Positions 38,708 to 57,474 of a stretch of DNA of 64,000 bases are shown in pieces (the first letter of the stretch is position 1; the number at the start of each line of letters is the position of its first letter). The translations under genes were made by a program, and so were the position numbers. The notes under the pieces are model-generated. The model had not been told where the DNA came from. It saw only the letters and a program-made list of their open reading frames with translations, and ran no database searches. Source of the stretch: Actinoallomurus purpureus. GTDB taxonomy: Bacteria; Actinomycetota; Actinomycetes; Streptosporangiales; Streptosporangiaceae. The stretch covers positions 1-64,000 of the forward strand of contig NZ_JAMXMY010000031.1 in assembly GCF_024055795.1 (NCBI RefSeq). Reading direction: 5' to 3'.

Positions 38708-39937
38708 CTAGAAGGCGTCTGTGCCGTTGGGGGTGCCGAGTCCGGTCGGACCGTCGTAGCCGCGCCCGGCCGTGCAGAGATAGGCCGGGTAGCAGCTCGC
38801 ATTGGTGCCGCTCATGACATCGAAGAGCCGCGTGCGATGGGCGTAGGGGTAGGCCGCGGCGTTCACCGTCGCAGCGTTTCCGGCGAGGGCGTAGACGGCA
38901 GCGATGATCGGTGACGATGCGCTCGTTCCGCCCACGGTGACCCACCCGCCGACGCCGTAGGTGTCATAGACCGCGACACCCGTGAAGGGATCGGCCACGG
39001 CGGCCACGTCCGCCACCGTGCGGTGCGTGCAGACCTTGTCGGTCTGCCAAGCGGGCTTGGCGATCTGGGTGGAGCATCCGCTGCCGGCTCCCCACCAGGC
39101 GGTCTCCTGCCATCCCCGCGCGTTGTCCGCGGGCCACAGCGTCGTCCCGCCGACCGCGATCACGTGCGCGGACGCGGCCGGATAGCCCACGCCGAGCCCG
39201 GAGTCACCCGATGACGCGGTGATGGCGATGCCCGGGTGGTCGAAGTGGCCCTCCATATGGGCCACCCCCACGTACTCGGGTTCGCCGTAACTGTTCGAGA
39301 TGGCGTTCGCGTGCAGCTTGGCGGCGGTGTCCACCGAGGCCCCCAGGCTCTCCTCCTGGTTGTCGTCGGCCTCGACCAGCAGGATGTGACAGTTCGGGCA
39401 GATGGCCGAGGCCATCTGGACGTCCAGCGATTCCTCCAGGGCCCACCCGCTGTCGGGCGACGGGAGCGGTGTGGCGGCGCCTCGCTGGTTGACCTTGTGG
39501 AAGCAGCCGTTGGCCTCCGTACAGGGCGGCAGTCCGTACTGGTGCCGGTAGACCGCCAGGTCGGCCTCGGCGTTCGGGTCGTCGAACGCGTCGACGATCC
39601 CGATGGTCTGTCCGGTGCCTCCCTTCGCCGCCGACGCGAGGCGGTATGCGGCCTGCAGGTCCGCGGGCCCGTATCCGGCCGGGCTCGTCGTGGTCAGAGC
39701 CGGTCCGGCGGGTCCCGAGGTGCGCACCACCGCCATGCAGCTCGGGTGCCCCGGCGAGGGCGTGCCGCACGCGTTACGTGCCGAAGGGGCCGGAGCGGTG
39801 GCAGCGGTCGCGTCCGCAGGCCGGGGGCCGGTGTCGGCGCGCGTGCTGCCGCCGGCGAGCAGGGCCGCCGCGCAGACGGCCGCGCCCAGCAGGGCGCCGC
39901 TGTGCCGTGTGCGACGTGGGGATCGGCGTCGGTTCAT
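38708..39937 (-). CDS. S53-family serine-carboxyl peptidase (sedolisin), secreted
   Basis: 409 residues from ATG 39937, with GAGGAG 7 bases upstream. Signal segment to about residue 33. Catalytic E168 and D172 in LEESLDVQMA and Ser339 in GGTSASSP, plus D245 in SSGDSG. The usual large S53 pro-domain of about 180 residues is missing: only about 80 residues lie between signal and catalytic domain. S53 peptidases are acid-active exopeptidases or endopeptidases. Neighbours are a propeller and a pro-region protein. Confidence 0.88.
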   Translation of the reverse strand: MNRRRSPRRTRHSGALLGAAVCAAALLAGGSTRADTGPRPADATAATAPAPSARNACGTPSPGHPSCMAVVRTSGPAGPALTTTSPAGYGPADLQAAYRLASAAKGGTGQTIGIVDAFDDPNAEADLAVYRHQYGLPPCTEANGCFHKVNQRGAATPLPSPDSGWALEESLDVQMASAICPNCHILLVEADDNQEESLGASVDTAAKLHANAISNSYGEPEYVGVAHMEGHFDHPGIAITASSGDSGLGVGYPAASAHVIAVGGTTLWPADNARGWQETAWWGAGSGCSTQIAKPAWQTDKVCTHRTVADVAAVADPFTGVAVYDTYGVGGWVTVGGTSASSPIIAAVYALAGNAATVNAAAYPYAHRTRLFDVMSGTNASCYPAYLCTAGRGYDGPTGLGTPNGTDAF

Positions 39938-39948
39938 CGGGGATCTCC

Positions 39949-42492
39949 TCACCGGCCGTGGGACCGGGCGTTGCCGGCGGCCGTGGTCGGCAGCGCGTAG
40001 GCGCGGGTGATCGTCTGTGACAGCGCACTTCCGGAGGTGTCCGACAACCGGGTCCGGAGTGAGACGTAACCGGTGGATTTCCCGCCCGCGGGCGGACCGG
40101 CGGGCACTGTCACCACGAAGCCGCCGTGGTCTGCCCGCACGTCACTGACGGCGGTCCAGGTCGCTCCGTCATCGAAGGAGACCTCGACCGCCGCCTTCGT
40201 CACCGGCGAGGCATTCGTCTCATGCGCCTGGTGGTAGCCGGTGAGCCGGAACGTCTCCGGCCGGTCCGCCGGCGCCCGGCCCGACTGGTCGACGTCGAGG
40301 TCGTAGCCCGCGAAGACCAGCGGGAGCAGCGAACATCCGCGGGTGACGTCCGGACCGCAGTACTCGAACGACGGGATCTTGTCCGGCCGGTCAGGGCGCC
40401 GTGACGTGAACGTCCACGCCGATTCCACCGTGGAATCCAGTGGCGACCCGGTCGGGGCGGGATGCGTGACCCAATCGATCTTGTACGAGGCGCTGCCCGG
40501 GAGCATCGGGAAGATGCCGCCGGAGCGCGGCTGTTCCTGCGTCAGCACGTCGTCGCGGTAGAACTTCAGGTCCTCGCCGGACCTCGGGAGATACGCCCAG
40601 TGGCCCGCCGCGTCGCCGTAGTCGGTGACGTCGAAGAGCATGATGTCGTCCTGCCGGCACACCGGGCACATGAAGCCGTGTCCGTCGCCGGCGGGACTGG
40701 GAGCCACCAGTCCGGACTCGGCCGTGGGAGTGGGCACCAGCGGGCCCCGCAGCCAGCTCTCGCTCGTCTGCCGGCCGGGCTCGTACGCGCGGGCGGTGCC
40801 GACGACCGACGCCGCGGCGTCGCCCACGTCGTCGAAGACGGCGGGTTGCCAGACCGGCGAACCCGCGCCGCCGAAGTAGTTGGTGCGCGTCCCTGGAAGA
40901 GCGAAGTTGTACACGCTGAGGTAGGCGTCGTAGGGGCTCCAGGAGTGATGGGGTGAGAAGAACTCGGCCCCCTGCCCCGGCCGGTCAGCGGAATAGTTCT
41001 CCTGGACCGTGGCGAGGTCGTCGGCACCGAGGTCGTGATCGAGCCGTGTCGGCACGCCTTCGTCATCGGCGTAGTCCAGGTAGTAGGCGTAGGCGGGATT
41101 CGCGCCGAAACCCCGCCCCGGTGGCTCGAGCAACCACGAGTCCGCGAAGTGAAGCGCCCCCACACCGTGTGCGCCGGTCGGCGTCGCGAAGGCGCGCAGA
41201 TCCGGGTACTCCTGCCCGGGCCCGAACACCTGCAGCAGCTCGGACCGGCCGAACCCGAGAACGGTACCCGCGAACGCCCGGCCGTCGGCCCCCTCGCGTG
41301 TGTAGCTGAGGCCGACCATCCCCGTCTCGGCCGGCCGGGGCGTCGTGATCGTCATCGGCTTGGCGGTACGCGCGTCGGCGGTCACCGCCCGGTCCCGGCG
41401 GACGGCGACGTCGGGCAGCGCCACGAACGTCGAGGTCTGGAACAACGACGAGGCGACCGGCGTCCCGACGAACGCCTCGATGCTGTACCGGCCGGCCGGC
41501 ACGCTCAAGGCGACCGGCTGGCCGGGCCCCACCCAGCTGACGCTCCAGTAGTGCCGCAGGTCGTCCAGGTTCTGGACGTCGATCCGCGCATAGCCCGGCT
41601 GACCGTCCCGCTCGATGGCGTCGATCGTCAGCGTGTACAGCCGGACCCCGTTCGTCGCGGACTCACCGCCGTCCGGCGTGCCGCCCACCGTGGCCGGCGG
41701 TGCCGCCTGGCCGCCTGCCGGCCGGCCGGCAGGTGGGGCGGCCTCTCCGGACGCCGGGAGGAGCGGTCCCTGCCCGGGCATGGCGAGCGAGACGGCGTTC
41801 ACCTCGTCCAGGCCACCGGCCTTCCCGGTGACCCTGGCCGACACGCGCCCTGCGGGGACATGCCGGTCGGCGGCGAACCTGGATGCCAGAGCCGCGCCGA
41901 ACGCCGTGGCCCGCGACTTGTCGACGGTGCCCGAGGTCGTCCTCCCCTTGATGGGGGCGGTGACTCCCGGCGCGGCGACCGGATGCCGATCCGCCTTCCA
42001 GCCGACCGTGACCGGGATCGCCTTCTGACGTGCGTCGTCGAAGCCGAGCCGGGTCAGCAGGCTGACGTCGAACAACCGCTGATCGAGCAGCGTTCCCAGG
42101 TACGGACCCGCGTCACGCGGCACCACGTACAGGTCGCCGCCCACGGTGAACGTGTCGACCAGGGGCACGGCACCCGACGCGCTCGGGGTGACGGAGACCT
42201 GTTGGTGACCTGCGGCGCCGTTGACGTGAACGCGCTCGCCGGTGATCAGTGTCACGACCGTACCGCCGCGACCGCCGGCGGTCGCGGCGATCTGGGCCGT
42301 GGACGCCGGCGGCAGCGCGCTCAGCGGGCCGGCCGGGTCGACCGGTGGGGTCTTCCCGCCCGAGAGGGCCGCCGCGGAACCACCCGCACATCCCAGGAGT
42401 GCCGCCGCGAGCGCGGCGGAGAGCAACCAGCCCCTCTTCCAGCGTCTCGTCGGTCTCGGCGCCGTGGGCCCAGGGGGTTCTGACCAGTGCAT
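39949..42492 (-). CDS. Large secreted protein with subtilase-type pro-region but no catalytic domain
   Basis: 847 residues from ATG 42492. The N-terminus has a lipobox-like LLGC (32-35). Residues about 78-160 (VVTLITGERVHV, then DLYVVPRDAGPYLGTLLDQRLFDVSLL) match the pro-region that precedes the catalytic domain in large actinomycete S8 peptidases. The domain with D, H and S does not follow; instead there is a Gly/Pro-rich linker, then YTLTIDAIERDGQPGYARID, SVPAGRYSIEAFVG and beta-rich modules resembling the C-terminal domains of the same proteases. A CPVC motif is in HGFMCPVCRQDD. Probably a non-catalytic relative, perhaps an inhibitor or binding protein. Confidence 0.7.
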   Translation of the reverse strand: MHWSEPPGPTAPRPTRRWKRGWLLSAALAAALLGCAGGSAAALSGGKTPPVDPAGPLSALPPASTAQIAATAGGRGGTVVTLITGERVHVNGAAGHQQVSVTPSASGAVPLVDTFTVGGDLYVVPRDAGPYLGTLLDQRLFDVSLLTRLGFDDARQKAIPVTVGWKADRHPVAAPGVTAPIKGRTTSGTVDKSRATAFGAALASRFAADRHVPAGRVSARVTGKAGGLDEVNAVSLAMPGQGPLLPASGEAAPPAGRPAGGQAAPPATVGGTPDGGESATNGVRLYTLTIDAIERDGQPGYARIDVQNLDDLRHYWSVSWVGPGQPVALSVPAGRYSIEAFVGTPVASSLFQTSTFVALPDVAVRRDRAVTADARTAKPMTITTPRPAETGMVGLSYTREGADGRAFAGTVLGFGRSELLQVFGPGQEYPDLRAFATPTGAHGVGALHFADSWLLEPPGRGFGANPAYAYYLDYADDEGVPTRLDHDLGADDLATVQENYSADRPGQGAEFFSPHHSWSPYDAYLSVYNFALPGTRTNYFGGAGSPVWQPAVFDDVGDAAASVVGTARAYEPGRQTSESWLRGPLVPTPTAESGLVAPSPAGDGHGFMCPVCRQDDIMLFDVTDYGDAAGHWAYLPRSGEDLKFYRDDVLTQEQPRSGGIFPMLPGSASYKIDWVTHPAPTGSPLDSTVESAWTFTSRRPDRPDKIPSFEYCGPDVTRGCSLLPLVFAGYDLDVDQSGRAPADRPETFRLTGYHQAHETNASPVTKAAVEVSFDDGATWTAVSDVRADHGGFVVTVPAGPPAGGKSTGYVSLRTRLSDTSGSALSQTITRAYALPTTAAGNARSHGR

Positions 42493-46340: not shown

Positions 46341-46473
46341 CAATGGGCCGCGCCACGCGCTATGGGGATCCCACGCGCACCCACGCCGGTCAGCTCATCA
46401 CCGAACCCACCCGCACGACCACCGAACCCGAATCGCCCGGTTCACAGCCCGAAAGCCGCAGGCGAAATGAAGA

Positions 46474-46509
46474 GCCTGCCGGGCGCGGATGTCGCCGTTC
46501 CCGGCAGGC
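46474..46509 (-). terminator. Terminator of the lanthipeptide operon
   Basis: Perfect 10-bp stem GCCTGCCGGG (46474-46483) and CCCGGCAGGC (46500-46509). On the minus strand it follows the precursor stop by 8 bases and is trailed by TCTTCATTT, a T-rich run, which fits a Rho-independent terminator. It could also end the SDR transcript. Confidence 0.75.
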
Positions 46510-46516
46510 CATGGGG

Positions 46517-46615
46517 TCACTGGCAGATGCTGCCCTTGCTGCTCAGGGTGAGCAGGTTGCAGGCCAGTTCCTCCTCGATCGACGCCTCAGCATGCAGACG
46601 CAGTACTTCCTCCAC
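46517..46615 (-). CDS. lanA: Class III lanthipeptide precursor peptide (32 residues)
   Basis: Starts GTG 46615, five bases after the LanKC stop, with AAGGAG (in the LanKC end) 8 bases upstream; stop at 46517-46519. Product: MEEVLRLHAEASIEEEL as leader and about ACNLLTLSSKGSICQ as core. The leader has a helical L-x-L-H motif close to the L-x-L-Q motif of class III leaders. The core contains T23-L-S-S26-K-G-S29-I-C31, which fits a (S/T)xxSx(2-5)C labionin or lanthionine pattern; a second Cys is at 19. Position directly behind LanKC, ribosome site and terminator all support a real gene. Confidence 0.75.
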   Translation of the reverse strand: MEEVLRLHAEASIEEELACNLLTLSSKGSICQ

Positions 46616-46620
46616 GCGGA

Positions 46621-49248
46621 TCACTCCTTTCCTCTGGTGCTGGCAACGGCATCCCTCGACGTCGTCAGGTGATCGTCGAGGGTGTCAAGGGAGACCGGCG
46701 CGGAATCCGTCAGGTGCCGCAGGGCGAGCAGGATTCCGGCCGAGCCGGACCACAGGTCGGCGGACAGTCGATGTCCAGGCTCACCGAGCCAGCCCACCCC
46801 GTCCTTGCGCGGGATCGCGTACCGGAACAGGCCACGGGCGCTGGTGAGCGCGGCGTCGATGAGTTCGGGCCGGCCGAGCCGCTTTCCGGCGTCGGCCAGT
46901 GTCACGGCGAGACCCGCCAGGCCCGGGAACAGTCCGGGGAGCACCGCGAAGCGGACTGAGCAGGCGCGCAGACAGCGTTCCAGCACATCGGCCGCACCGA
47001 GGCCGACGTCGGCGGCTACGTCGAACTCCGCATCCGGGCGGTGCGCGAGATAGCGGGAGAGCACTGCGGCGTATCCCGCGCTGCCAGCGAACAGGTAGGG
47101 ATAGACGCGACGGTCGGCGTGCGAGGTCTTGAAGCCCAGGCCGTCCACCGGCATGGGCTCGGCATAGGCCAATTCCTCCCGCAGCAGCCGCATGCCTCGG
47201 GCGAACAGGTGGGAATCCCCGGTGCGGCGATACAGGTCGTACAGCGCCAGCGCCACACCAGCCCGCCCGCCGACCAGCCCGGACCGGTTGGTCGGGCTCA
47301 ACTGGGAGGTGAGCTCGTCACCGTCCGGAACGCCCTCGAGCAGCCGCTGAGCCAGGTCCAGCCAACGCTGTTCGCCGGTGTGACGGTGGTGGACCAGCAG
47401 GCCGAGCGCCGTACCGGCCGCGCCGCCGCCGAGCGTGGCGGACGTGCTGTTGAGCGGATGAGCCGCCGCCGAGGCGAGCAGGGTCTCGGCCGCGTCGGAC
47501 TCCCCGAGCTCCGCCAGCACGCAGGCGATGCCGGCGCTGCCGTACAGCAGGCCGGGTGCGCTGGTCGGGGCCGCGGCAAGCGCGTCGTCCCGCAGCCGGC
47601 GGACCACGACCGGGTCGCAGATGCGGCCGGAGCGGTGCAGCGCGTGCAGCACGCCGGCGGTACCGGCGGCCACTGCGCGGGTGTCGGTCTGATGCCCCAA
47701 CGGGTTGGTCGGGTAGACCCGCACCGGGTGGTCCGGCTCCGCCATCGCCTCCAGCGTGTCGGCGGTCTGGTCTGCCAGCAGGCGCAGCGCGGCGACGGTG
47801 TCCTCGCGGACGGTCCGCGGCGTGGGCAGGCGGGAGTCCTCGGTTCGGTCGTGGCAGCGGGCGGCCCACTGCCACAGCCGTGGGGCGACCGGTGCGAGCT
47901 CGGTCAGGTTGGCGTGCAGATGGTCCAGGGCCTGCGGATTCCGTTCGACCACCTCGTGTACGGGGAACACGAGCAGCAGCGCCAGGGCGGCCAGCCCGAA
48001 CCGGTCGAGCTCAACGGGATCGCGGTCGGCCACAGACCGAGGATCCGGGTGGAGGTAGCCGGGAGTGCCCATGATCCGCCGTACGCCCTCGATGGGCTGC
48101 ACCGCCTCGAAGTCGACGAGCCGGACCCGGTCGTCGTCGTCGACGAGCACGTTGGTCGGGCTGAGATCGACGAAAACGTAGCCCAGTTCGTGCAGGCGAT
48201 GCAGCTGCGCGTCGAGCTGGTCGAGCAGGGCCAGGCTGCGGCGGTGATACTCGGCGAACGACGGGGCGTCCGGCCCGATGCGCACCGCGGGATTGTTCAT
48301 CACCATCCACCGGTACAGCTGCATGCCGGGCGTGAACTCGGTGACGAGAAAGCTGTTCTCCCAGTGGTGGAACAGTTCCACTGGTCGCGGGCACAGGCCA
48401 GGTTCGCGGCCGTGTATCGCCCGCAGGGCCAGGTACTCGGTGTTCAACCGCGTCTTCGCGTCGGCGCCGTCAGCGGTGTAACCGTTGTGCGCCTTCGCCT
48501 CCTTGACGAACACCGGGCTGCCGTCCGCGGAGCGGAACCGGTAGGTGCCCCCGGCATTGCCGTGCCGCAGCACGGCATCGAAGGTGTAGCCATGCAGCGT
48601 GACCGGGCCCGTGGCGACCTCCGGGACGGTCTGCCGGAACGGATCCAAGACACCGGGCGGCAGGTGGAACGCCGGCCGGCGCTCGTCATCGATCTCCCGC
48701 CCGTCCGCTCCGACCATGGTGTGCACGTGGTTGCCTTCCGCGTCGACTCGCTCGCGGCCGCGAAACGCTCCGTACCTGTAGGAAACACACTCACTCTCGC
48801 CGAAACGACGATCGGAGAGCACAAAAGGCCCTCCGATCCCGGACAGATCCTCCGTCAGCCGCCGGAACATCCGCAGCGCACACTGCTCGGTGGGCGGATA
48901 CAGGGTGCAGAACTTGCCGCTCTGCACCCTGTTCGCGTGCTTGTCGTGCGCCAGCAAGAACGTCCGGTGACCGGCCAAGTGTTTGAACGGGACGCCTAAC
49001 TCGGCACACGCCGTCGACACCACCGCCAGCACGGACTGCGCATTGGGCAGGGAGCTGGACACGTGCACCTTCCACCCCTGATCGGGGAGGTCGAGACCGG
49101 CCGGGCCCCAGAAAGTCCACACGCCCGAGTGCTGTCGCGTCCAACCGGTCGGCATGGGACCCGCGTCGTAGCGCGGACCTGGATCGGCAGTGTCCCAGGG
49201 TTCGTAGTAATCCTCATCGGCGACCAGGAACGACATGTCCACTGCCAC
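46621..49248 (-). CDS. lanKC: Class III lanthipeptide synthetase (LanKC)
   Basis: 875 residues from GTG 49248 (AGGAG 7 bases upstream; an ATG four codons later is also possible). Three domains: an N-terminal phosphoSer/Thr lyase region (to about 210, with KVHVSSSLPNAQSVLAVV), a Ser/Thr kinase domain (about 230-520: FVDLSPTNVLV and LVDFEAV loops) and a LanC-like cyclase (about 540-860). The cyclase lacks the Cys-Cys-His zinc ligands of class I, II and IV enzymes (LLYGSAGIA and LWSGSAGILLAL lie at the homologous sites), so it is class III. It phosphorylates, eliminates and cyclises Ser/Thr and Cys of the adjacent precursor. Confidence 0.93.
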   Translation of the reverse strand: MAVDMSFLVADEDYYEPWDTADPGPRYDAGPMPTGWTRQHSGVWTFWGPAGLDLPDQGWKVHVSSSLPNAQSVLAVVSTACAELGVPFKHLAGHRTFLLAHDKHANRVQSGKFCTLYPPTEQCALRMFRRLTEDLSGIGGPFVLSDRRFGESECVSYRYGAFRGRERVDAEGNHVHTMVGADGREIDDERRPAFHLPPGVLDPFRQTVPEVATGPVTLHGYTFDAVLRHGNAGGTYRFRSADGSPVFVKEAKAHNGYTADGADAKTRLNTEYLALRAIHGREPGLCPRPVELFHHWENSFLVTEFTPGMQLYRWMVMNNPAVRIGPDAPSFAEYHRRSLALLDQLDAQLHRLHELGYVFVDLSPTNVLVDDDDRVRLVDFEAVQPIEGVRRIMGTPGYLHPDPRSVADRDPVELDRFGLAALALLLVFPVHEVVERNPQALDHLHANLTELAPVAPRLWQWAARCHDRTEDSRLPTPRTVREDTVAALRLLADQTADTLEAMAEPDHPVRVYPTNPLGHQTDTRAVAAGTAGVLHALHRSGRICDPVVVRRLRDDALAAAPTSAPGLLYGSAGIACVLAELGESDAAETLLASAAAHPLNSTSATLGGGAAGTALGLLVHHRHTGEQRWLDLAQRLLEGVPDGDELTSQLSPTNRSGLVGGRAGVALALYDLYRRTGDSHLFARGMRLLREELAYAEPMPVDGLGFKTSHADRRVYPYLFAGSAGYAAVLSRYLAHRPDAEFDVAADVGLGAADVLERCLRACSVRFAVLPGLFPGLAGLAVTLADAGKRLGRPELIDAALTSARGLFRYAIPRKDGVGWLGEPGHRLSADLWSGSAGILLALRHLTDSAPVSLDTLDDHLTTSRDAVASTRGKE

Positions 49249-49792
49249 CCAGCCACTCCTTCCACCAGCCGCACCGCGCCCCACAGCACACTGCCATCAC
49301 AGGTCACGTTCAAGATCGAGCGGAAATGAGGCAGCGGGCGCAGGTAAAGGATCTACACCTATTTGTCCGAGTATCGCCTACTAAACTGGTCTGCGCCAGG
49401 ATTGACGGGTTTGTTCTGCCGCTGATCGCCAGTTTCCGATGATTCCGGAGGAGACCCAGGTTCCGGCTGGACCAATGAGGCCGTTTACGTCCACCGTATC
49501 GGCGTGCAGCCGCACTCGATCGCAATCGGAACGGCCCGAATGGACGTAGTGGAGACGATGCTGTCGCCGCAGGTCATTACCGCGTACGGGTGTCTTGCAT
49601 TCCTTCCGACCCGCCAGCTGCCGGGTTCGATGCCGCCGAATTCGGCGACCATATCCCTACCTGCTCGACCTGCGGCCGGCCGAAAAGCCGACCACCACCC
49701 GCACCGTGTTGAATCAGGGCCGGAATCCCCGGGCCTGCTGGCTCCCGGCCATCCCGCCCGGTAGCGGGGCTGCCGTCGGCGCCGGTTCTGGC
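49249..49792. other. Upstream region of lanKC (544 bp), no certain gene
   Basis: Probably holds the lanKC promoter: minus-strand TTGAAC at 49313-49308 is a possible -35. A 55-codon minus-strand frame (49485-49652) opens MVAEFGGIEPGSWRVGRNAR and contains four Cys/His-type residues (VMTCGDS, IECGCTP), but has neither a convincing ribosome site nor known relatives. Left uncalled. Confidence 0.3.
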
Positions 49793-51226: not shown

Positions 51227-52759
51227 TCAGACGTCGAACTCGACGCCCTGGGCGAGCGGCAGTTCGCCGGAGTAGTTGATGGTGTTGGTCGCGCGGCGCA
51301 TGTAGCCGCGCCAGGCGTCCGAGCCCGACTCGCGGCCGCCGCCGGTCTCCTTCTCGCCTCCGAAGGCGCCGCCGATCTCGGCTCCGGAGGTGCCGATGTT
51401 GACGTTGACGATGCCGCAGTCCGAACCCTCGGGCGAGACGAACAGCTCAGCCTCGGCCTGGTCCCGCGTGAAGATGCTCGATGACAGGCCCTGCGGCACC
51501 GCGTTGTTCAGCGCGATGGCCTCCTCGAGGCTCCCGTACGGCATGACGTACAGGATCGGCGCGAACGTCTCCTGGGTCACGATCGGCGTCTGTGCCCCGA
51601 TCCGTACGAGCGCCGGCTCGGCGTAGTAGGCGCCCGGCGCCTGGTCCTCCAGCCTGCGCCCGCCGCCGGCCACGAGTGTTCCGCCCTGGGAGACGGCGGC
51701 GTCCAGCGCGTCGCGCATCGCCTCGTACGCGCGCTCGTTGATGAGCGGGCCGACCAGGGTGCCCTGCGCCATCGGGTCGCCGATCGGCAGCCGGCCGTAC
51801 GCGCCGGCGAGGCGTTCGACGAGCGTGTCCACGACGTCGGTGTGGGCGATGACGCGGCGCATCGTCGTGCAGCGCTGGCCCGCCGTCCCGGCGGCCGAGA
51901 ACACGATGCCGCGTACGGTCAGGTCCAGGTCGGCCGACGGGCAGACCACGGCGGCGTTGTTCCCGCCGAGTTCCAGCAGGGACCGTCCGAACCTCGCGGC
52001 GACGCGCGGGCCCACCGCGCGGCCCATGCGCGTCGAGCCGGTGGCGCTGACCAGGGCGATTCCCGGGTGGTCGACCAGCGCCTCGCCCACGTCGGGGCCG
52101 CCGATGAGGACCTGGCTCAGGTACGCGGGCGCGCCCTGCTCGGCCGCGGCGCGGTCCAGCAGTGCGGCGCTCGCCAGGGCGGTCAGCGGTGCCAGCTCGG
52201 ACGGCTTCCAGATGACCGGGTCGCCGCACACCAGGGCGATCGCGGTGTTCCACGCCCACACCGCCGCCGGGAAGTTGAACGCGCTGATCACGCCGACGAC
52301 GCCCAGCGGGTGCCAGGTCTCCATGAGGCGGTGGCCCGGCCGCTCGGAGCTGATCGTGCGCCCGTACAGCTGGCGGGACAGGCCCAGCGCGTAGTCGCAG
52401 ATGTCGATCATCTCCTGGACCTCGCCGAGCGCCTCGGAGGTGATCTTCCCGACCTCCAGGCTGATCAGCGTGGCGAGGTCCTCCTTGTGCTCGGTGAGCA
52501 ACTCGCCGAACCGCTTCACCAGCGCACCGCGTACGGGTGCGGGAACGCGGCGCCAGGCGAGGAACGCCTCCCCTGCCCGCGTGATGGCGGCGTCGACGGT
52601 GCCGGCGTCGGCCCATCCCACGGCGGACAGGCGCTCGCCGTTGATCGGCGAGGTGGTCGCGACGTCAGCTCCGAGCGCGTCCACGTCCACACCGCAGCGC
52701 TTGGCGGTCTCTCGCGCCATCGCGGCCAGCTGGTCCGCGCCGGGCAGCGTGGTCACCAT
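51227..52759 (-). CDS. Aldehyde dehydrogenase, aminoadipate-semialdehyde type
   Basis: 510 residues from ATG 52759, with GGGAGAA upstream. Catalytic E263 in LLELGGNNAAV and nucleophile C297 in GTAGQRCTTMRR. The sequence around NNAAVVCPSADLDL, and the end YMRRATNTINYSGELPLAQGVEFDV, match the alpha-aminoadipate semialdehyde/piperideine-6-carboxylate dehydrogenases (ALDH7-type) that make 2-aminoadipate. This fits the HglS and D-2-hydroxyglutarate dehydrogenase genes upstream. A broken oxidase gene lies just before it. Confidence 0.85.
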   Translation of the reverse strand: MVTTLPGADQLAAMARETAKRCGVDVDALGADVATTSPINGERLSAVGWADAGTVDAAITRAGEAFLAWRRVPAPVRGALVKRFGELLTEHKEDLATLISLEVGKITSEALGEVQEMIDICDYALGLSRQLYGRTISSERPGHRLMETWHPLGVVGVISAFNFPAAVWAWNTAIALVCGDPVIWKPSELAPLTALASAALLDRAAAEQGAPAYLSQVLIGGPDVGEALVDHPGIALVSATGSTRMGRAVGPRVAARFGRSLLELGGNNAAVVCPSADLDLTVRGIVFSAAGTAGQRCTTMRRVIAHTDVVDTLVERLAGAYGRLPIGDPMAQGTLVGPLINERAYEAMRDALDAAVSQGGTLVAGGGRRLEDQAPGAYYAEPALVRIGAQTPIVTQETFAPILYVMPYGSLEEAIALNNAVPQGLSSSIFTRDQAEAELFVSPEGSDCGIVNVNIGTSGAEIGGAFGGEKETGGGRESGSDAWRGYMRRATNTINYSGELPLAQGVEFDV

Positions 52760-52790
52760 CAGGGTTCTCCCTCGGATTGTCGGTTCTCGA

Positions 52791-52932
52791 TCAGACGATG
52801 TCGAGCTCGGGCCGGGCCTCGGCCAGGGCGAAGCGGCGGGAGTCGACGAATGGCTCCCTGCCAAGGTAGAGGTCGCGGACGACCTCCCCGACGGCCGGGC
52901 TCATGAGGAAGCCGTCGCCGGGGAGCCCGGCA
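52791..52932 (-). pseudogene. C-terminal remnant of an FAD-dependent amino-acid oxidase
   Basis: The minus strand encodes GLPGDGFLMSPAVGEVVRDL and YLGREPFVDSRRFALAEAR before a stop at 52791: the C-terminal FAD-binding end of sarcosine-oxidase/pipecolate-oxidase-type (DAO) proteins. No start or N-terminal part; upstream DNA (52933-53141) is unrelated and may be mobile-element or rearranged sequence. Such oxidases are the usual step before the aldehyde dehydrogenase in lysine degradation. Confidence 0.75.
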
Positions 52933-53141
52933 GAACACGAACAGTGCGGAGGTCGGCAACCGCGCCGGCCTGAGCCACGAACCCACATGTCAAGGGCGGT
53001 AAGCCCGGTTTCCGCACCCTCAAGGGCATCGGGCTCTCCACGCGGCGGCGGCGGAGGGGCCGCCTCTCCCGGGAGGCTCCCAGAACCAGGGCTGTCCAAA
53101 TTGCCGTCCTTGCTGCGTCGTCCAGGTACGAAAAGCCACGG

Positions 53142-55967
53142 TCAGGAGCCCAGCCGCTCGGCGAGGAGCTGGGCGAGGTGGACGCCCTGCCGTGGCGACA
53201 GGTCGGCGATCTGCGTACGGCAGGAGAAGCCGTCGGCGAGGACGACCGTCTCCGCCTCCGCGTCGCGCAGAGCGGGCAGCAGTTGGTGCTCGGCCACCGC
53301 GACGGACACCTCGTAGTGTCCCTTCTCGACACCGAAGTTGCCCGCCAGCCCGCAGCATCCGCCGAGCCGCTGAACGTCCGCGCCCGCCTCCCGGAGCAGC
53401 CGGGCGTCCTGGTCCCAGCCCATGACGGCATGGTGGTGGCAGTGCGGCTGGGCCACCACCGTCGTCCCGTCGAACGAGGGCGGCCGCCAGTCCGGGGTCT
53501 CGGCCAGGAGCTCGGCCAGCGTGCGGGTGCGCTCCGCCACCGGGGCCGCCACCGCCTCGTCCAGCAGCTCCAGCGCGTCCGAGCGCAGGACGGCCGTGCA
53601 GGACGGCTCCATCCCGACGATCGGCACGCCCCTCTCGGCGGCCTCGGCCAGCTCCCCGACCGTACGGCCCAGGATCTTCTTGGCCGCGTCGAGCTGGCCC
53701 GTGGAGATGTAGGTGAGCGCGCAGCACTGGCGGCGCTCGCTGATCTGCGGCGTGTAGCCCGCGGCCGCCAGCACGGCCACGGTCGCGCGGCCGACCTCCG
53801 GGGCGAAGTGGTCGGTGAACGTGTCGACGAACAGCATGACCGGCCTGCCGTCGGCCGGACGGTCGCCGCGGGTCCGCTCGAACCAGTCGCGGAACGTCCG
53901 CGGCGCGAACTCGGGCAGGTGCCGCCGCCTGTCCACCCCGGCGACCGCCAGCGCCGCCCGCCGCAGCCCCGGCACGCGCATGGCCCCGTTGACGACGCGC
54001 GGCATGCGGCCGGCCAGCCTCGCCCAGAGCGGCAGCCGGCCCAGCGAGTAGTGCGACGCGGGACGCAGCCGCCCACGGTAGCTCTGGTGCAGCACCTCGG
54101 ACTTGTAGGCGGCCATGTCGATCCCGGTCGGGCAGTCCGAGGCGCAGCCCTTGCAGGACAGGCACAGGTCGAGGGCCTCGTGGACCTCGGGCGAGCGCCA
54201 CCCGCCATCGACCAGGGAGCCGTTGACCATCTCCTGCAGGACGCGGGCCCGCCCGCGGGTGGAGTCCTTCTCTTCCCGGGTGGCCAGGTAGGACGGGCAC
54301 ATCACCCCGCCGGACGCGGTGTTGTCCGCGCGGCACTTGCCCACGCCCGTGCAGCGGTGCACCGACTGGCTGAAGTCGCCGCCGTCGTGGCGGTAGGCCA
54401 GGGCGAGGTTCTTCCGCACCGGCCGGGCGGCCGGGATCCGCAGGTCGGCGTCGACCGGGCGGGGCCGCACCAGCACCCCGGGGTTGAGCACGTCACCCGG
54501 GTCGAAGATCCCCTTGACCCGGCGGAACAGGTCGACCGCCGTCTCGGAGTACATCAGCGGCAGCAGCTCGCTGCGGGCGCGGCCGTCCCCGTGCTCGCCG
54601 GACAGCGAACCGCCGTACCCGGCGACGAGCGTGGCCGCGGCCTCCAGGAACGCGCGGTACGCCTGCGGCCCCTCCGGCCTGTCCAGCGGCCAGTCGATCC
54701 GGATGTGCAGGCAGCCGTCGCCGAAGTGCCCGTACGGGAGGCCGGTCACGCCGTGCTCGGCCATCAGCGCCTCGAAGTCGCGCAGGTAGCGGCCCAGCAT
54801 CGCCGGGGGCACGGCCGCGTCCTCCCAGCCCCCGTGCGCGGGCAGCCCGGCGGGGCTGCGGCCGGACAGGCCCGCGCCGTCCTCCCGGATGCGCCACAGC
54901 GCCGCCGCCCGCGCAGGGTCGGTGACGACGAGGGCGTCCTCGCCACCGGCGGCCACCCGCCCCGCCCGGTCGAGGACCTCGGTCTCGTCGTCCCCGGCGA
55001 CCTCGACGAACAGCCACGCGGCCCCGCGCGGCAACGGCGGCACCGCGTCGGGGCCCCGCCGCGTGCGCACCACGTCGACGATGCGCGCGTCGATGCCCTC
55101 ACAGGCCGTGGGCAGGTGCTCCAGCACGCCGGGAGCGGCGTCGCCCGCAGCGGCGATGTCGTCGTAGCCGAGCACGACCAGGACCCGGTGCGCCGGGTCG
55201 GTCACCAGTCTCACCGTCGCCTCGGTCAGCACTGCGAGGGTGCCCTCGCTGCCCACCAGCAGGCGGGCCACGTCGAACCGCCGCTCCGGCAGCAGGTGCT
55301 CCAGCGCGTATCCCGACACCTGCCGCCCGAACCGGCCGAACTCCGTCCTGATCGTGGCGAGGTTCGCGTTCGCGAGGTCGTGCAGCGCGGTGAGCTCGGC
55401 GGGAGCGTCCGGGGCGGGCCGGCCCAGCGGGGACGACAGGTCCAGCGCGGAGCCCTTGCCCGTCACCGCTTTGAGGGCGGCGATGTTATCGGAGGTGCGG
55501 CCGTAGCCGAGCGTCCGGGAGCCGCACGCGTTGTTGCCGATCATGCCGCCGATCGTGCAGCGCGTGTGGGTGGAGGGGTCGGGGCCGAACCTGAGCCCGT
55601 ACGGGGCGGCCGCGCGCTGCAGGTGGGCCTGGACGACGCCGGGTTGGACCACGGCGGTCCGGGCCTCGGCGTCGACCTGCAGCACCTGCCCCATGTGGCG
55701 GCTGAAGTCCAGCACGAGCCCGGGACCGATCGCGTTTCCGGCCACCGACGTGCCGCCGCCGCGGGCGGTGAGGGGGATCTCGTGGCGCGCGCACAGCTCG
55801 ATCGCGGTGGCCACGTCCTCGGCGGATCTGGGCCGGGCGACCACCGACGGCGGCACCCGGTAGAGAGAGGCGTCGGACGAGTGGGCGGACCGCGCCAGGG
55901 AGTCGGTCAGCACGTCGGTGACTCCGCGTCGGCGCAGCTCGGTCGCGAGGGTGGCAGCCGGATCCAT
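53142..55967 (-). CDS. FAD/Fe-S D-2-hydroxyglutarate dehydrogenase (GlcD-GlpC fusion, YdiJ-like)
   Basis: 941 residues from ATG 55967. N-terminal FAD_binding_4/GlcD part (about 1-500: ARGGGTSVAGNAIGPGLVLD, GCLHIRIDWPLDRPEG), then an iron-sulphur segment with RCTGVGKCR, CLSCKGCASDCPTG (CxxCxxCxxxCP) and two GlpC-like CCG regions (QCCALTYIS, GGCCGLAGNFG). This fusion architecture is that of D-2-hydroxyglutarate dehydrogenases. It returns D-2-hydroxyglutarate made by the divergent HglS enzyme to 2-oxoglutarate. Start lacks a clear ribosome site. Confidence 0.88.
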   Translation of the reverse strand: MDPAATLATELRRRGVTDVLTDSLARSAHSSDASLYRVPPSVVARPRSAEDVATAIELCARHEIPLTARGGGTSVAGNAIGPGLVLDFSRHMGQVLQVDAEARTAVVQPGVVQAHLQRAAAPYGLRFGPDPSTHTRCTIGGMIGNNACGSRTLGYGRTSDNIAALKAVTGKGSALDLSSPLGRPAPDAPAELTALHDLANANLATIRTEFGRFGRQVSGYALEHLLPERRFDVARLLVGSEGTLAVLTEATVRLVTDPAHRVLVVLGYDDIAAAGDAAPGVLEHLPTACEGIDARIVDVVRTRRGPDAVPPLPRGAAWLFVEVAGDDETEVLDRAGRVAAGGEDALVVTDPARAAALWRIREDGAGLSGRSPAGLPAHGGWEDAAVPPAMLGRYLRDFEALMAEHGVTGLPYGHFGDGCLHIRIDWPLDRPEGPQAYRAFLEAAATLVAGYGGSLSGEHGDGRARSELLPLMYSETAVDLFRRVKGIFDPGDVLNPGVLVRPRPVDADLRIPAARPVRKNLALAYRHDGGDFSQSVHRCTGVGKCRADNTASGGVMCPSYLATREEKDSTRGRARVLQEMVNGSLVDGGWRSPEVHEALDLCLSCKGCASDCPTGIDMAAYKSEVLHQSYRGRLRPASHYSLGRLPLWARLAGRMPRVVNGAMRVPGLRRAALAVAGVDRRRHLPEFAPRTFRDWFERTRGDRPADGRPVMLFVDTFTDHFAPEVGRATVAVLAAAGYTPQISERRQCCALTYISTGQLDAAKKILGRTVGELAEAAERGVPIVGMEPSCTAVLRSDALELLDEAVAAPVAERTRTLAELLAETPDWRPPSFDGTTVVAQPHCHHHAVMGWDQDARLLREAGADVQRLGGCCGLAGNFGVEKGHYEVSVAVAEHQLLPALRDAEAETVVLADGFSCRTQIADLSPRQGVHLAQLLAERLGS

Positions 55968-55972
55968 GAGTA

Positions 55973-55985
55973 GCATGTTACATGC
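55973..55985. promoter_or_regulatory. Perfect palindrome between the dehydrogenase and hglS genes
   Basis: GCATGTTACATGC: arms GCATGT and ACATGC around a central T, only 6 bases from the dehydrogenase ATG. Its GCATG half-sites recur in front of the GntR gene (59814-59828). Candidate binding site of that GntR/FCD regulator. Confidence 0.55.
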
Positions 55986-56064
55986 GACACCTGGCGCTCG
56001 CCTCGCCTTCTCCGTACGCTTCCGTGTGACACCGCAGGGTTCGGCGGCGAGGAGAGAAGGGCCG

Positions 56065-57474
56065 ATGGTCGACTCGACCGCGCTCCGGGCGGCGTTCGCC
56101 CGACGGCTGTCGGCGATGTACGGCACGGAGGTCCCCGCCTACAACACCCTTGTCGACGTCGCGCAGGACGTGAACCGCGAGGTGCTGGAGCGGATGGGGG
56201 CCGACGCCGAACGGCTGGGCTCCATCGACCGCGTCACCGCCGAGCGGCACGGCGCGATCCGCGTCGGAACGCCGACCGAGATGGCGCAGGTCGCCCGCGT
56301 CTTCGGCGCGATGGGCATGTACCCGGTCGGCTACTACGACCTGCGCGAGGCGGCGAGCAGCTCGGTGCCGGTCGTCTCCACGGCGTTCCGTCCCGTCGAC
56401 GAGGCGGAGCTGGCCGCCAATCCCTTCCGCGTGTTCACCTCCATGCTCGTGACGGGCGACCGGCGGTTCTTCGACGAGGACCTCGAACGCAGGCTCAGCG
56501 AGTTCCTCGGGGCGCGCCGGCTGTTCCCGCCGCGGCTGCTCGACCTCGCCGACCGCGCCGAGGCCGAGGGCGGCCTGGACGACGCGGAGGCCGAGGAGTT
56601 CCTCACCCTCGCCACCCAGGCGTTCGAGCTGTCCAGGGTCCCGGTCTCCCGCAGCTGGTACACCGAGCTGGAGCGCGTGTCCTCGGTCGCCGCAGACATC
56701 GGCGGCGTGCCCAGCACCCACGTCAACCACCTGACGCCGCGCGTGCTCGACATCGACGCCCTCTACGCGCGCATGAGTGAGCGCGGCGTCACGATGATCG
56801 ACGCCATCCAGGGGCCGCCCCGCTGGGACGGCCCCGACCTGCTGCTGCGCCAGACCTCCTTCCGCGCGCTGGCGGAGCCACGCGTATTCCGGGAGGACGA
56901 CGGCAGGATCGTGGAGGACGACCTGCGCGTACGGTTCGGGGAGGTGGAGGCACGGGGCATCGCGGTGACGCCCGCCGGACGCGCCCGGTACGACGAGCTG
57001 TCCGCCGAACTGGACACCGCGCTCGCGGGGCGGCGGGTGACGGCCGAGGAGCGGGGCGCCGTCGCGGCCAAGCTCTGGGAGGGCCGGGTGCCGCGCACCG
57101 AGGCCGAGCTCGTGACGGGCGACCTCGCCTACTTCACGTTCCACACCACGGGCTCGCGTCCGGCGTCCGCTCCGCCGGCCGGCCTCGCCACGCTCCTGGC
57201 GGAGGGCTGGGTCACGGCCCGGCCGATCGTGTACGAGGACTTCCTGCCGCGCTCGGCCGCCGGGATCTTCCGGTCGAACCTGACCTCCGACGGTTCCAAG
57301 GACGCGACGAGGGCCGGCGCGGAGTTCGGGGCCGAGGCGCTGGCCGAGGTGCTCGGGCGGCGGCTGCACGATCCCTACGCGCTGTACGCGTCGATCCGGG
57401 CCGCGTCGCTGACGCGCGTGCGCGATGAGCTGGGCCTCGACAGGGAGATCGTCCTGCCCCGGGTTCGTAGATGA
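56065..57474 (+). CDS. hglS: 2-oxoadipate dioxygenase/decarboxylase (HglS, DUF1338)
   Basis: 469 residues, ATG 56065, with AGAAGG 4 bases upstream. The family converts 2-oxoadipate to D-2-hydroxyglutarate with Fe(II). Conserved regions: MYGTEVPAYNTLVDVAQDVN, ERHGAIRVGT, THVNHLTPRVLDID and VRFGEVEARG. H62, H222 and E293 are the probable metal triad, in line with the His/His/Glu ligands described for the Pseudomonas enzyme. Divergent from the D-2-hydroxyglutarate dehydrogenase; together they form the end of the lysine/2-aminoadipate route. Confidence 0.9.
   Translation: MVDSTALRAAFARRLSAMYGTEVPAYNTLVDVAQDVNREVLERMGADAERLGSIDRVTAERHGAIRVGTPTEMAQVARVFGAMGMYPVGYYDLREAASSSVPVVSTAFRPVDEAELAANPFRVFTSMLVTGDRRFFDEDLERRLSEFLGARRLFPPRLLDLADRAEAEGGLDDAEAEEFLTLATQAFELSRVPVSRSWYTELERVSSVAADIGGVPSTHVNHLTPRVLDIDALYARMSERGVTMIDAIQGPPRWDGPDLLLRQTSFRALAEPRVFREDDGRIVEDDLRVRFGEVEARGIAVTPAGRARYDELSAELDTALAGRRVTAEERGAVAAKLWEGRVPRTEAELVTGDLAYFTFHTTGSRPASAPPAGLATLLAEGWVTARPIVYEDFLPRSAAGIFRSNLTSDGSKDATRAGAEFGAEALAEVLGRRLHDPYALYASIRAASLTRVRDELGLDREIVLPRVRR

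Follow-up and report, generated by a model that had tools for sequence, protein, structure and literature searches.

A probable minimal two-gene class III lanthipeptide cassette, LanKC and a 32-codon precursor gene, in Actinoallomurus

In the described class III lanthipeptide systems the precursor leader frequently carries the motif LxLQ (PMC7268733) and the core the characteristic motif Ser-x2-Ser-x3-Cys (PMC7268733, PMC13380574), and in ThurKC a leader helix binds the kinase N-lobe, with the leader Gln contacting Tyr243, Glu258 and Arg112 (PMC10604976). We investigated a 64,000-nucleotide stretch of the Actinoallomurus purpureus genome (RefSeq assembly GCF_024055795.1, contig NZ_JAMXMY010000031.1, positions 1 to 64,000; hereafter the window), which carries on its minus strand a gene for the lanthionine synthetase LanKC and, directly behind it, a short frame. 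The reading that suits this locus best is that of a minimal two-gene class III lanthipeptide cassette, and from sequence comparison we give it a probability of about 0.87. The cassette belongs to a known class, the class III lanthipeptides, and not to a new one. A preliminary description of the window had proposed a probable class III precursor behind LanKC, and the family score of the enzyme, its catalytic residues and the linkage of the pair at five of five loci bear this out.

46621..49248, minus strand: LanKC, class III lanthionine synthetase of 875 amino acids (lyase, kinase and predicted metal-free cyclase), recognised by NF038151, RamC_N, LANC_like and its catalytic residues
46517..46615, minus strand: precursor peptide gene, 32 amino acids, with an LRLH leader and the core C19..T23-x-S25-S26-x-G28-S29-I30-C31
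46624..46629, minus strand: Shine-Dalgarno-like AAGGAG of the precursor gene, within the 3' end of LanKC, by direct reading

The enzyme scores 691 bits against the NCBIfam class III model NF038151 (cut-off 575) and 370 bits, below the cut-off of 650, against the class IV (LanL) model NF038150, which indicates a LanKC rather than a LanL. In Pfam, RamC_N and LANC_like are above their cut-offs, with Pkinase slightly below (29.4 versus 31.7). We infer that 49248, the LanKC limit given in the preliminary description, is a good start, because the GTG found there in the window is kept behind GGAGT in the four full-length loci. The closest solved relative by sequence is a class III LanKC, PDB entry 8sap, whose chain numbering matches that of ThurKC with an offset of 3 in our reading of the alignment; the roles of ThurKC residues are taken from PMC10604976. 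The ThurKC residue is present at every one of the 15 kinase and lyase positions that we compared (K65, H67, K94, K108, K117, D152, R163, R191, K257, E279, D364, the catalytic-loop Asn and D382-F383-E384, in ThurKC numbering), in the window as well as in three full-length orthologues. Judged by its residues, the cyclase is metal-free and of the class III kind, because the Cys/Cys/His zinc-ligand positions are F720, F774 and P775.

As the preliminary description had reported, a 32-codon frame begins five bases past the LanKC stop (TGA, 46623-46621); it runs from a GTG start at 46615 to a TGA end at 46517 and encodes VEEVLRLHAEASIEEELACNLLTLSSKGSICQ. The AAGGAG to which it had also pointed (46629-46624) shares bases with the end of LanKC and precedes the GTG by 8 nucleotides, and the GGAG within it is kept in five loci. 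Across both strands and all frames of the window, the precursor is the sole open reading frame (ORF) that fits a loose leader-plus-core pattern, one designed around peptides of its own kind. Membership in a Pfam or NCBIfam precursor family was rejected, as searches of Pfam (E <= 0.001) and NCBIfam (E <= 10) returned no matching model.

Scanning genome contigs for LanKC yielded two loci, L009 in Actinoallomurus iriomotensis NBRC 103681 and L010 in a Thermomonosporaceae metagenome-assembled genome. Within the genus, all eight genomes contain matches to the window LanKC and four of them an orthologue, namely the window genome and the relatives G002, G003 and G006 (79-84% identical), the further matches listed being at most 38% identical. 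The preliminary description had named the lack of any LanKC-linked homologue of the peptide as one finding that would refute it. This was not the outcome: at five of five loci (the window, the three same-genus genomes and the metagenome-assembled genome) the orthologous LanKC is immediately followed by a homologous peptide. The variants, with the first codon given as M, are as follows.

Window precursor: MEEVLRLHAEASIEEELACNLLTLSSKGSICQ
L009/G002 precursor: MEEVLRLQAEVAIQEELACNVLTMSSKGSICQ
L010 precursor: MEEVLRLQAELAVQEELDCNMAAPTMSSRGSICV
G003 precursor: MEEVLRLQSEAAVQEELACGVLTMSSKGSICL
G006 precursor: MEEVLRLQSEVAAQEELACGVLTLSSRGSICQ

Across the five loci 19 positions are invariant, including C19, T23, S25, S26, G28, S29, I30 and C31, and the core pattern C...T-x-S-S-(K/R)-G-S-I-C is kept throughout. 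The leader with L-x-L-H and the Ser/Thr...Ser...Cys core that had been noted from the window alone therefore recur, with LRLH in the window copy and LRLQ in the other four. The sole indel is of 6 nucleotides, in frame, and adds two residues in L010 between C19 and T23. Pooled over the ten precursor pairs, the fraction of sites that differ is 0.37 for synonymous and 0.14 for nonsynonymous positions. The ratio of nonsynonymous to synonymous change (dN/dS) lies between 0.14 and 0.50 for nine of the pairs and reaches 0.91 for window/L085. In the leader the two fractions are 0.50 and 0.12. By these comparisons the frame is confirmed as a genuine gene shared with close relatives. It is highly improbable that the frame is no gene, or a dead remnant, with LanKC acting on a different peptide: this would agree with the absence of Pfam and NCBIfam matches at the thresholds above and with the loss of the leader Gln from the window copy, but it is opposed by the linkage at all five loci, the in-frame indel, the lower nonsynonymous than synonymous change, the conserved GGAG and the absence of a second pattern-fitting peptide in the window.

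A profile of the precursor, run against 341 family genomes, matched 13 genomes at E <= 0.05. Five of these, at 1e-19 to 5e-23, are the five loci (taking the G029 row as the L010 locus, which has the same coordinates) and score high by construction because the same sequences built the profile. The eight weak matches (E 0.0027-0.036) were rejected, as the stretch of about 3 kb compared around each of them contains no LanKC. Plasmid records gave no match. Among 396 genomes sampled across the phylum, LanKC at E <= 1e-130 (two candidates scored per genome) was found only in the window genome, as was the precursor at E <= 0.001; the sample includes no other known carrier, and the result therefore speaks for rarity, not absence.

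Next, we examined how far the likeness between loci extends, comparing 26 kb around the pair in the window with 19 kb around the pair in each of G002, G003 and G006, which covers 6.5-10 kb to either side of LanKC, and, on the downstream side only, with L010.

46472..49279, minus strand: conserved cassette, given as the outermost limits of DNA alignment (49260-49279 to 46472-46475) with three same-genus relatives, the flanks being unaligned
46473..46510, minus strand: hairpin behind the precursor, a possible transcript end, from its fold and the pairing in relatives

The nucleotide alignments with the three relatives run from 49266 to 46472, 49260 to 46475 and 49279 to 46473, and that of L010 ends at 46475, so the homologous DNA begins just 5' of the ribosome-binding site of LanKC and stops where the hairpin downstream of the precursor ends. 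No conserved neighbour gene was found within 6.5-10 kb of LanKC in the three relatives, and the sole match outside the pair is that of the window aldehyde dehydrogenase (51227-52864) to an ORF near the G003 LanKC, at 28% identity, together with its antisense shadow. At the sequence level, the reading as a class III LanKC and its linked precursor is thus supported by the family score, the intact kinase and lyase residues and the lost zinc ligands on the one hand and, on the other, the canonical leader in relatives and the five-of-five linkage amid otherwise unlike close surroundings.

The hairpin (46510-46473) has a fold z of -4.2, and its pairing is retained in relatives: among the five sequences 93% of the pair cells are kept, and both sides have changed in three of the 15 pairs. 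Among 500 shuffles, the observed value is reached by 22 for the percentage paired, by 28 for the number of pairs changed on both sides, by 51 for the number of such cells, by 129 for the pair types and by 13 for the covariation score; because 13 to 129 shuffles match the observed measures, covariation is only suggestive. The preliminary description had spoken of a T-trailed hairpin, of which the hairpin stands and the T trail does not. A proper T-tract terminator was rejected, since the tail is only mildly T-rich, the terminator scan gave no call and the relatives have no T run.

Several observations count against the two-gene cassette. The leader of the window copy has His in place of the motif Gln; the core differs at 0.20 of synonymous and 0.15 of nonsynonymous sites, which are nearly equal, synonymous change being low too; LanKC has G, G and P where ThurKC has R610, D667 and D771; and neither a transporter nor a protease lies within the cassette. 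Regarding the leader, the equivalents of Tyr243, Glu258 and Arg112 in the window LanKC are Y, E and R in our reading of the alignment. In ThurKC, exchanging the leader Gln for Ala stalled processing yet still permitted full dehydration (PMC10604976), and because dehydration stays possible there, the His copy is, by analogy, probably still used. The contrast in substitutions between core and leader rests on five sequences and is not pressed. The core codons (46517-46561, minus strand) show low synonymous change over the five loci, which may reflect codon bias or a nucleic-acid constraint.

As for the cyclase, R610, D667 and D771 of ThurKC influenced labionin formation, and the R610/D667 pair is described as having no sequence conservation among labionin makers (PMC10604976). 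Across 48 aligned LanKC frames the three columns differ widely (two of the frames, L079 and L082, were extracted wrongly and are among the odd cells of the residue counts), and because the columns are so variable, the loss of these residues says little either way.

Of 11 flanking ORFs chosen from the 37-58 kb region and scanned, not one matched a transporter family, and one matched nothing. An S8 subtilase (38708-39952), at a distance of 6.6 kb to the precursor, does not belong to the ORFs common to the relatives' loci. The M1 peptidases, which we take to be the family of AplP-type leader proteases, have seven matches in the window genome, which says little because they are also present in eight of 14 control genomes. 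A linked protease is usually missing from actinobacterial class III clusters (PMC7268733).

In content the flanks of the window cassette are unremarkable: one side has an F420/LLM oxidoreductase and an SDR, the other RibD-like deaminase and reductase genes together with lysine-catabolism genes. The latter are probable from 51227 to 57474, where an L-piperidine-6-carboxylate dehydrogenase (NF050084), an FAD/Fe-S oxidase and the 2-oxoadipate dioxygenase/decarboxylase HGLS are found. A ribD-like gene, 73-87% identical, sits away from LanKC in G003, G006 and G007, and relatives of the left-hand oxidoreductase are at most 57% identical. Between the two cassette edges (46381-46520 and 49231-49420) there is one 8-base inverted word and no direct word of 8 bases or more.

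In a 200-genome order sample, with at most four candidates scored per genome, the LanKCs of G057 and G197 are 52-53% identical to that of the window and the others listed at most 38%. In a FastTree phylogeny of 46 of the 48 frames (L079 and L082 dropped), they form one group with the window clade, with a support of 1.0. Their precursors lie directly behind LanKC or overlap its end, have LKLQ or LRLQ leaders and one core Cys, and their cores read Ser-x2-Ser-x3, x4 or x5-Cys, x4 occurring in one sister precursor; the spacing T23-x2-S26-x4-C31 of the window core therefore fits this range. At the G057 locus (L054/L086) at least five differing tandem precursors follow one LanKC, and after them comes a frame whose leader is of another type (MDQVMSLNNLP...); a related frame (MDEVMSLNDLP...) occurs in G197.

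The preliminary description had regarded synthetase-first order as less usual. This does not hold in our sample, because in the 48 best-scoring loci, which are not a random sample, a precursor-like ORF by our own pattern is behind LanKC in 43, in front in one and absent in four; without four cassette loci it is behind in 39 of 44. The in-front ORF, at L033, is the same peptide that lies behind the tandem partner L040, and the loci without such an ORF are L023, L026, L034 and L079, the LanKC frame of L079 being probably wrong. L033 and L040 are two tandem LanKC genes of the window genome (contig C4, 96368-101619), and the precursor-like ORF between them, MRTVEQILALQEMQEDTVSVPSNCVSWTSSNTAF, has a single Cys, ahead of most of its core Ser/Thr. 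Another LanKC of this genome (L027; contig C21, 35231-37699, minus strand) is followed by MKAILDLQDLKTEAPAPPLSSNKSVICCIQTN, which contains an SSNKSVIC block resembling SSKGSIC plus one residue.

If the locus is a two-gene cassette, LanKC and precursor would probably share one message, the precursor ribosome-binding site lying inside the end of LanKC. By analogy with known LanKCs, the leader helix around V4-L5-x-L7-(Q/H)8 would dock on LanKC between the kinase N-lobe and the lyase domain, the kinase would phosphorylate Thr23 and as many as three of the residues Ser25, Ser26 and Ser29, the lyase would eliminate the phosphate to give dehydrobutyrine (Dhb) or dehydroalanine (Dha), and the zinc-free cyclase would add Cys31 to a dehydrated residue. 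As the ring we favour, by prediction, a (methyl)labionin formed through T23-x2-S26-x4-C31; a lanthionine closed on C31 would be the simpler alternative. Because the cassette holds neither gene, we propose that an unlinked peptidase would cleave the leader and a general transporter would export the product. These chemical steps are all carried over from what is known of the family. The calculated [M+H]+ of the untagged precursor is 3516.74 when unmodified, 3480.72 after the loss of two waters and 3444.70 after the loss of four. As for a biological role, the core is nearly unchanging across species, which gives a weak hint of a fixed target, for example in a developmental or signalling role.

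The exact Ser-x2-Ser-x3-Cys spacing is absent from the window core, which has T23-x2-S26-x4-C31 and S26-x2-S29-x1-C31, and a ring through the latter would be unusually tight. At somewhat less than even odds, LanKC would modify the peptide without making labionin, leaving dehydrated residues and/or a simple lanthionine from S25 or S26 to C31, with C19 free or in an intermolecular disulfide. Among class III products the Ser-x2-Ser-x3-Cys motif leads to lanthionine in some cases and to labionin in other cases (PMC7268733), and the three labionin-affecting ThurKC residues are lost here, both of which agree with such an outcome. The sister clade, however, retains Ser-x2-Ser-x(3-5)-Cys spacing, and none of T23, S25, S26, S29 and C31 varies among the five precursors, which goes beyond what a single lanthionine needs. 

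C19 is likewise invariant and lies upstream of every core Ser/Thr. It is unlikely that Cys19 also cyclises, in the reversed direction, onto Dhb23 or a Dha to give a product with two thioethers; its invariance in five of five precursors, and the single core Cys of each sister-clade precursor shown, favour this, but the spacing from C19 to T23 shifts by two residues in L010, whereas the T23-C31 block is fixed. Moreover, a ring from Cys19 to position 23 would run against the usual direction. In paenithopeptins a disulfide is described around the labionin (PMC8960859), whereas the window precursor has two Cys in all. We regard it as decidedly unlikely that the cassette combines a new ring topology, that is, a (methyl)labionin of unusual spacing (x4, or x1 through S26-x2-S29-I-C31) with a reversed Cys19 thioether made by a LanKC unlike ThurKC at the labionin-affecting positions, with two genes that move between sites as a sharp-edged unit without a transporter, protease or mobile-element gene of their own.

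The words SSKGSIC, SSRGSIC, EEVLRLQ and TMSSKGS were absent from the literature text searched, whose scope leaves aside the supplementary tables of mined precursors that may well list the peptide. Among the papers found on Actinoallomurus and lanthipeptides, none concerns the cassette as judged by title and the start of the abstract. The cassette is a small, self-contained enzyme-substrate pair that is easily co-expressed, with a core that in our searches matched no NCBIfam or Pfam model and nothing in the literature text. Its five natural variants, including the in-frame insertion between Cys19 and Thr23 and the change of the leader Gln to His, make questions of ring pattern and leader recognition directly testable. 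Furthermore, without a conserved neighbour, a class III pathway may persist with very little linked DNA.

Overall, the cassette shares with the ThurKC/andalusicin-type class III systems a LanKC of lyase, kinase and metal-free cyclase with the same kinase and lyase residues, an L-x-L-Q leader (in its relatives) and a Ser/Thr...Ser...Cys core. In the ThurKC cluster there are seven precursors together with a methyltransferase (PMC10604976), whereas the cassette has one precursor and no methyltransferase, and its core, unlike those of this type, has two Cys, one of them before all core Ser/Thr. The G057 and G197 loci resemble it in the placement of their precursors and in their leaders, and they differ in having tandem precursors (at least five in G057, two identical ones in G197) and many neighbour genes common to both; compared with these nearest LanKC relatives, the cassette core has an extra N-terminal Cys. 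SapB/AmfS systems likewise have LanKC and then the precursor, with class III chemistry. The core had been described as unlike SapB, and this agrees with its VLRLH/Q leader and single Cys-terminated block in place of an LLDLQ-type leader and two Ser-x2-Ser-x(2-3)-Cys motifs; the same-genus precursors that we take to be SapB-like have LLDMQ leaders and two such motifs, and the cassette peptide has neither. Finally, the L078 locus, presumably of labyrinthopeptin type, also has a short peptide behind LanKC, in which S-T-G-S or S-H-G-S somewhat resembles the S-K-G-S of the cassette, and differs in its ILELQ leader, two labionin-type motifs, more Cys and a LanKC that is 35% identical.

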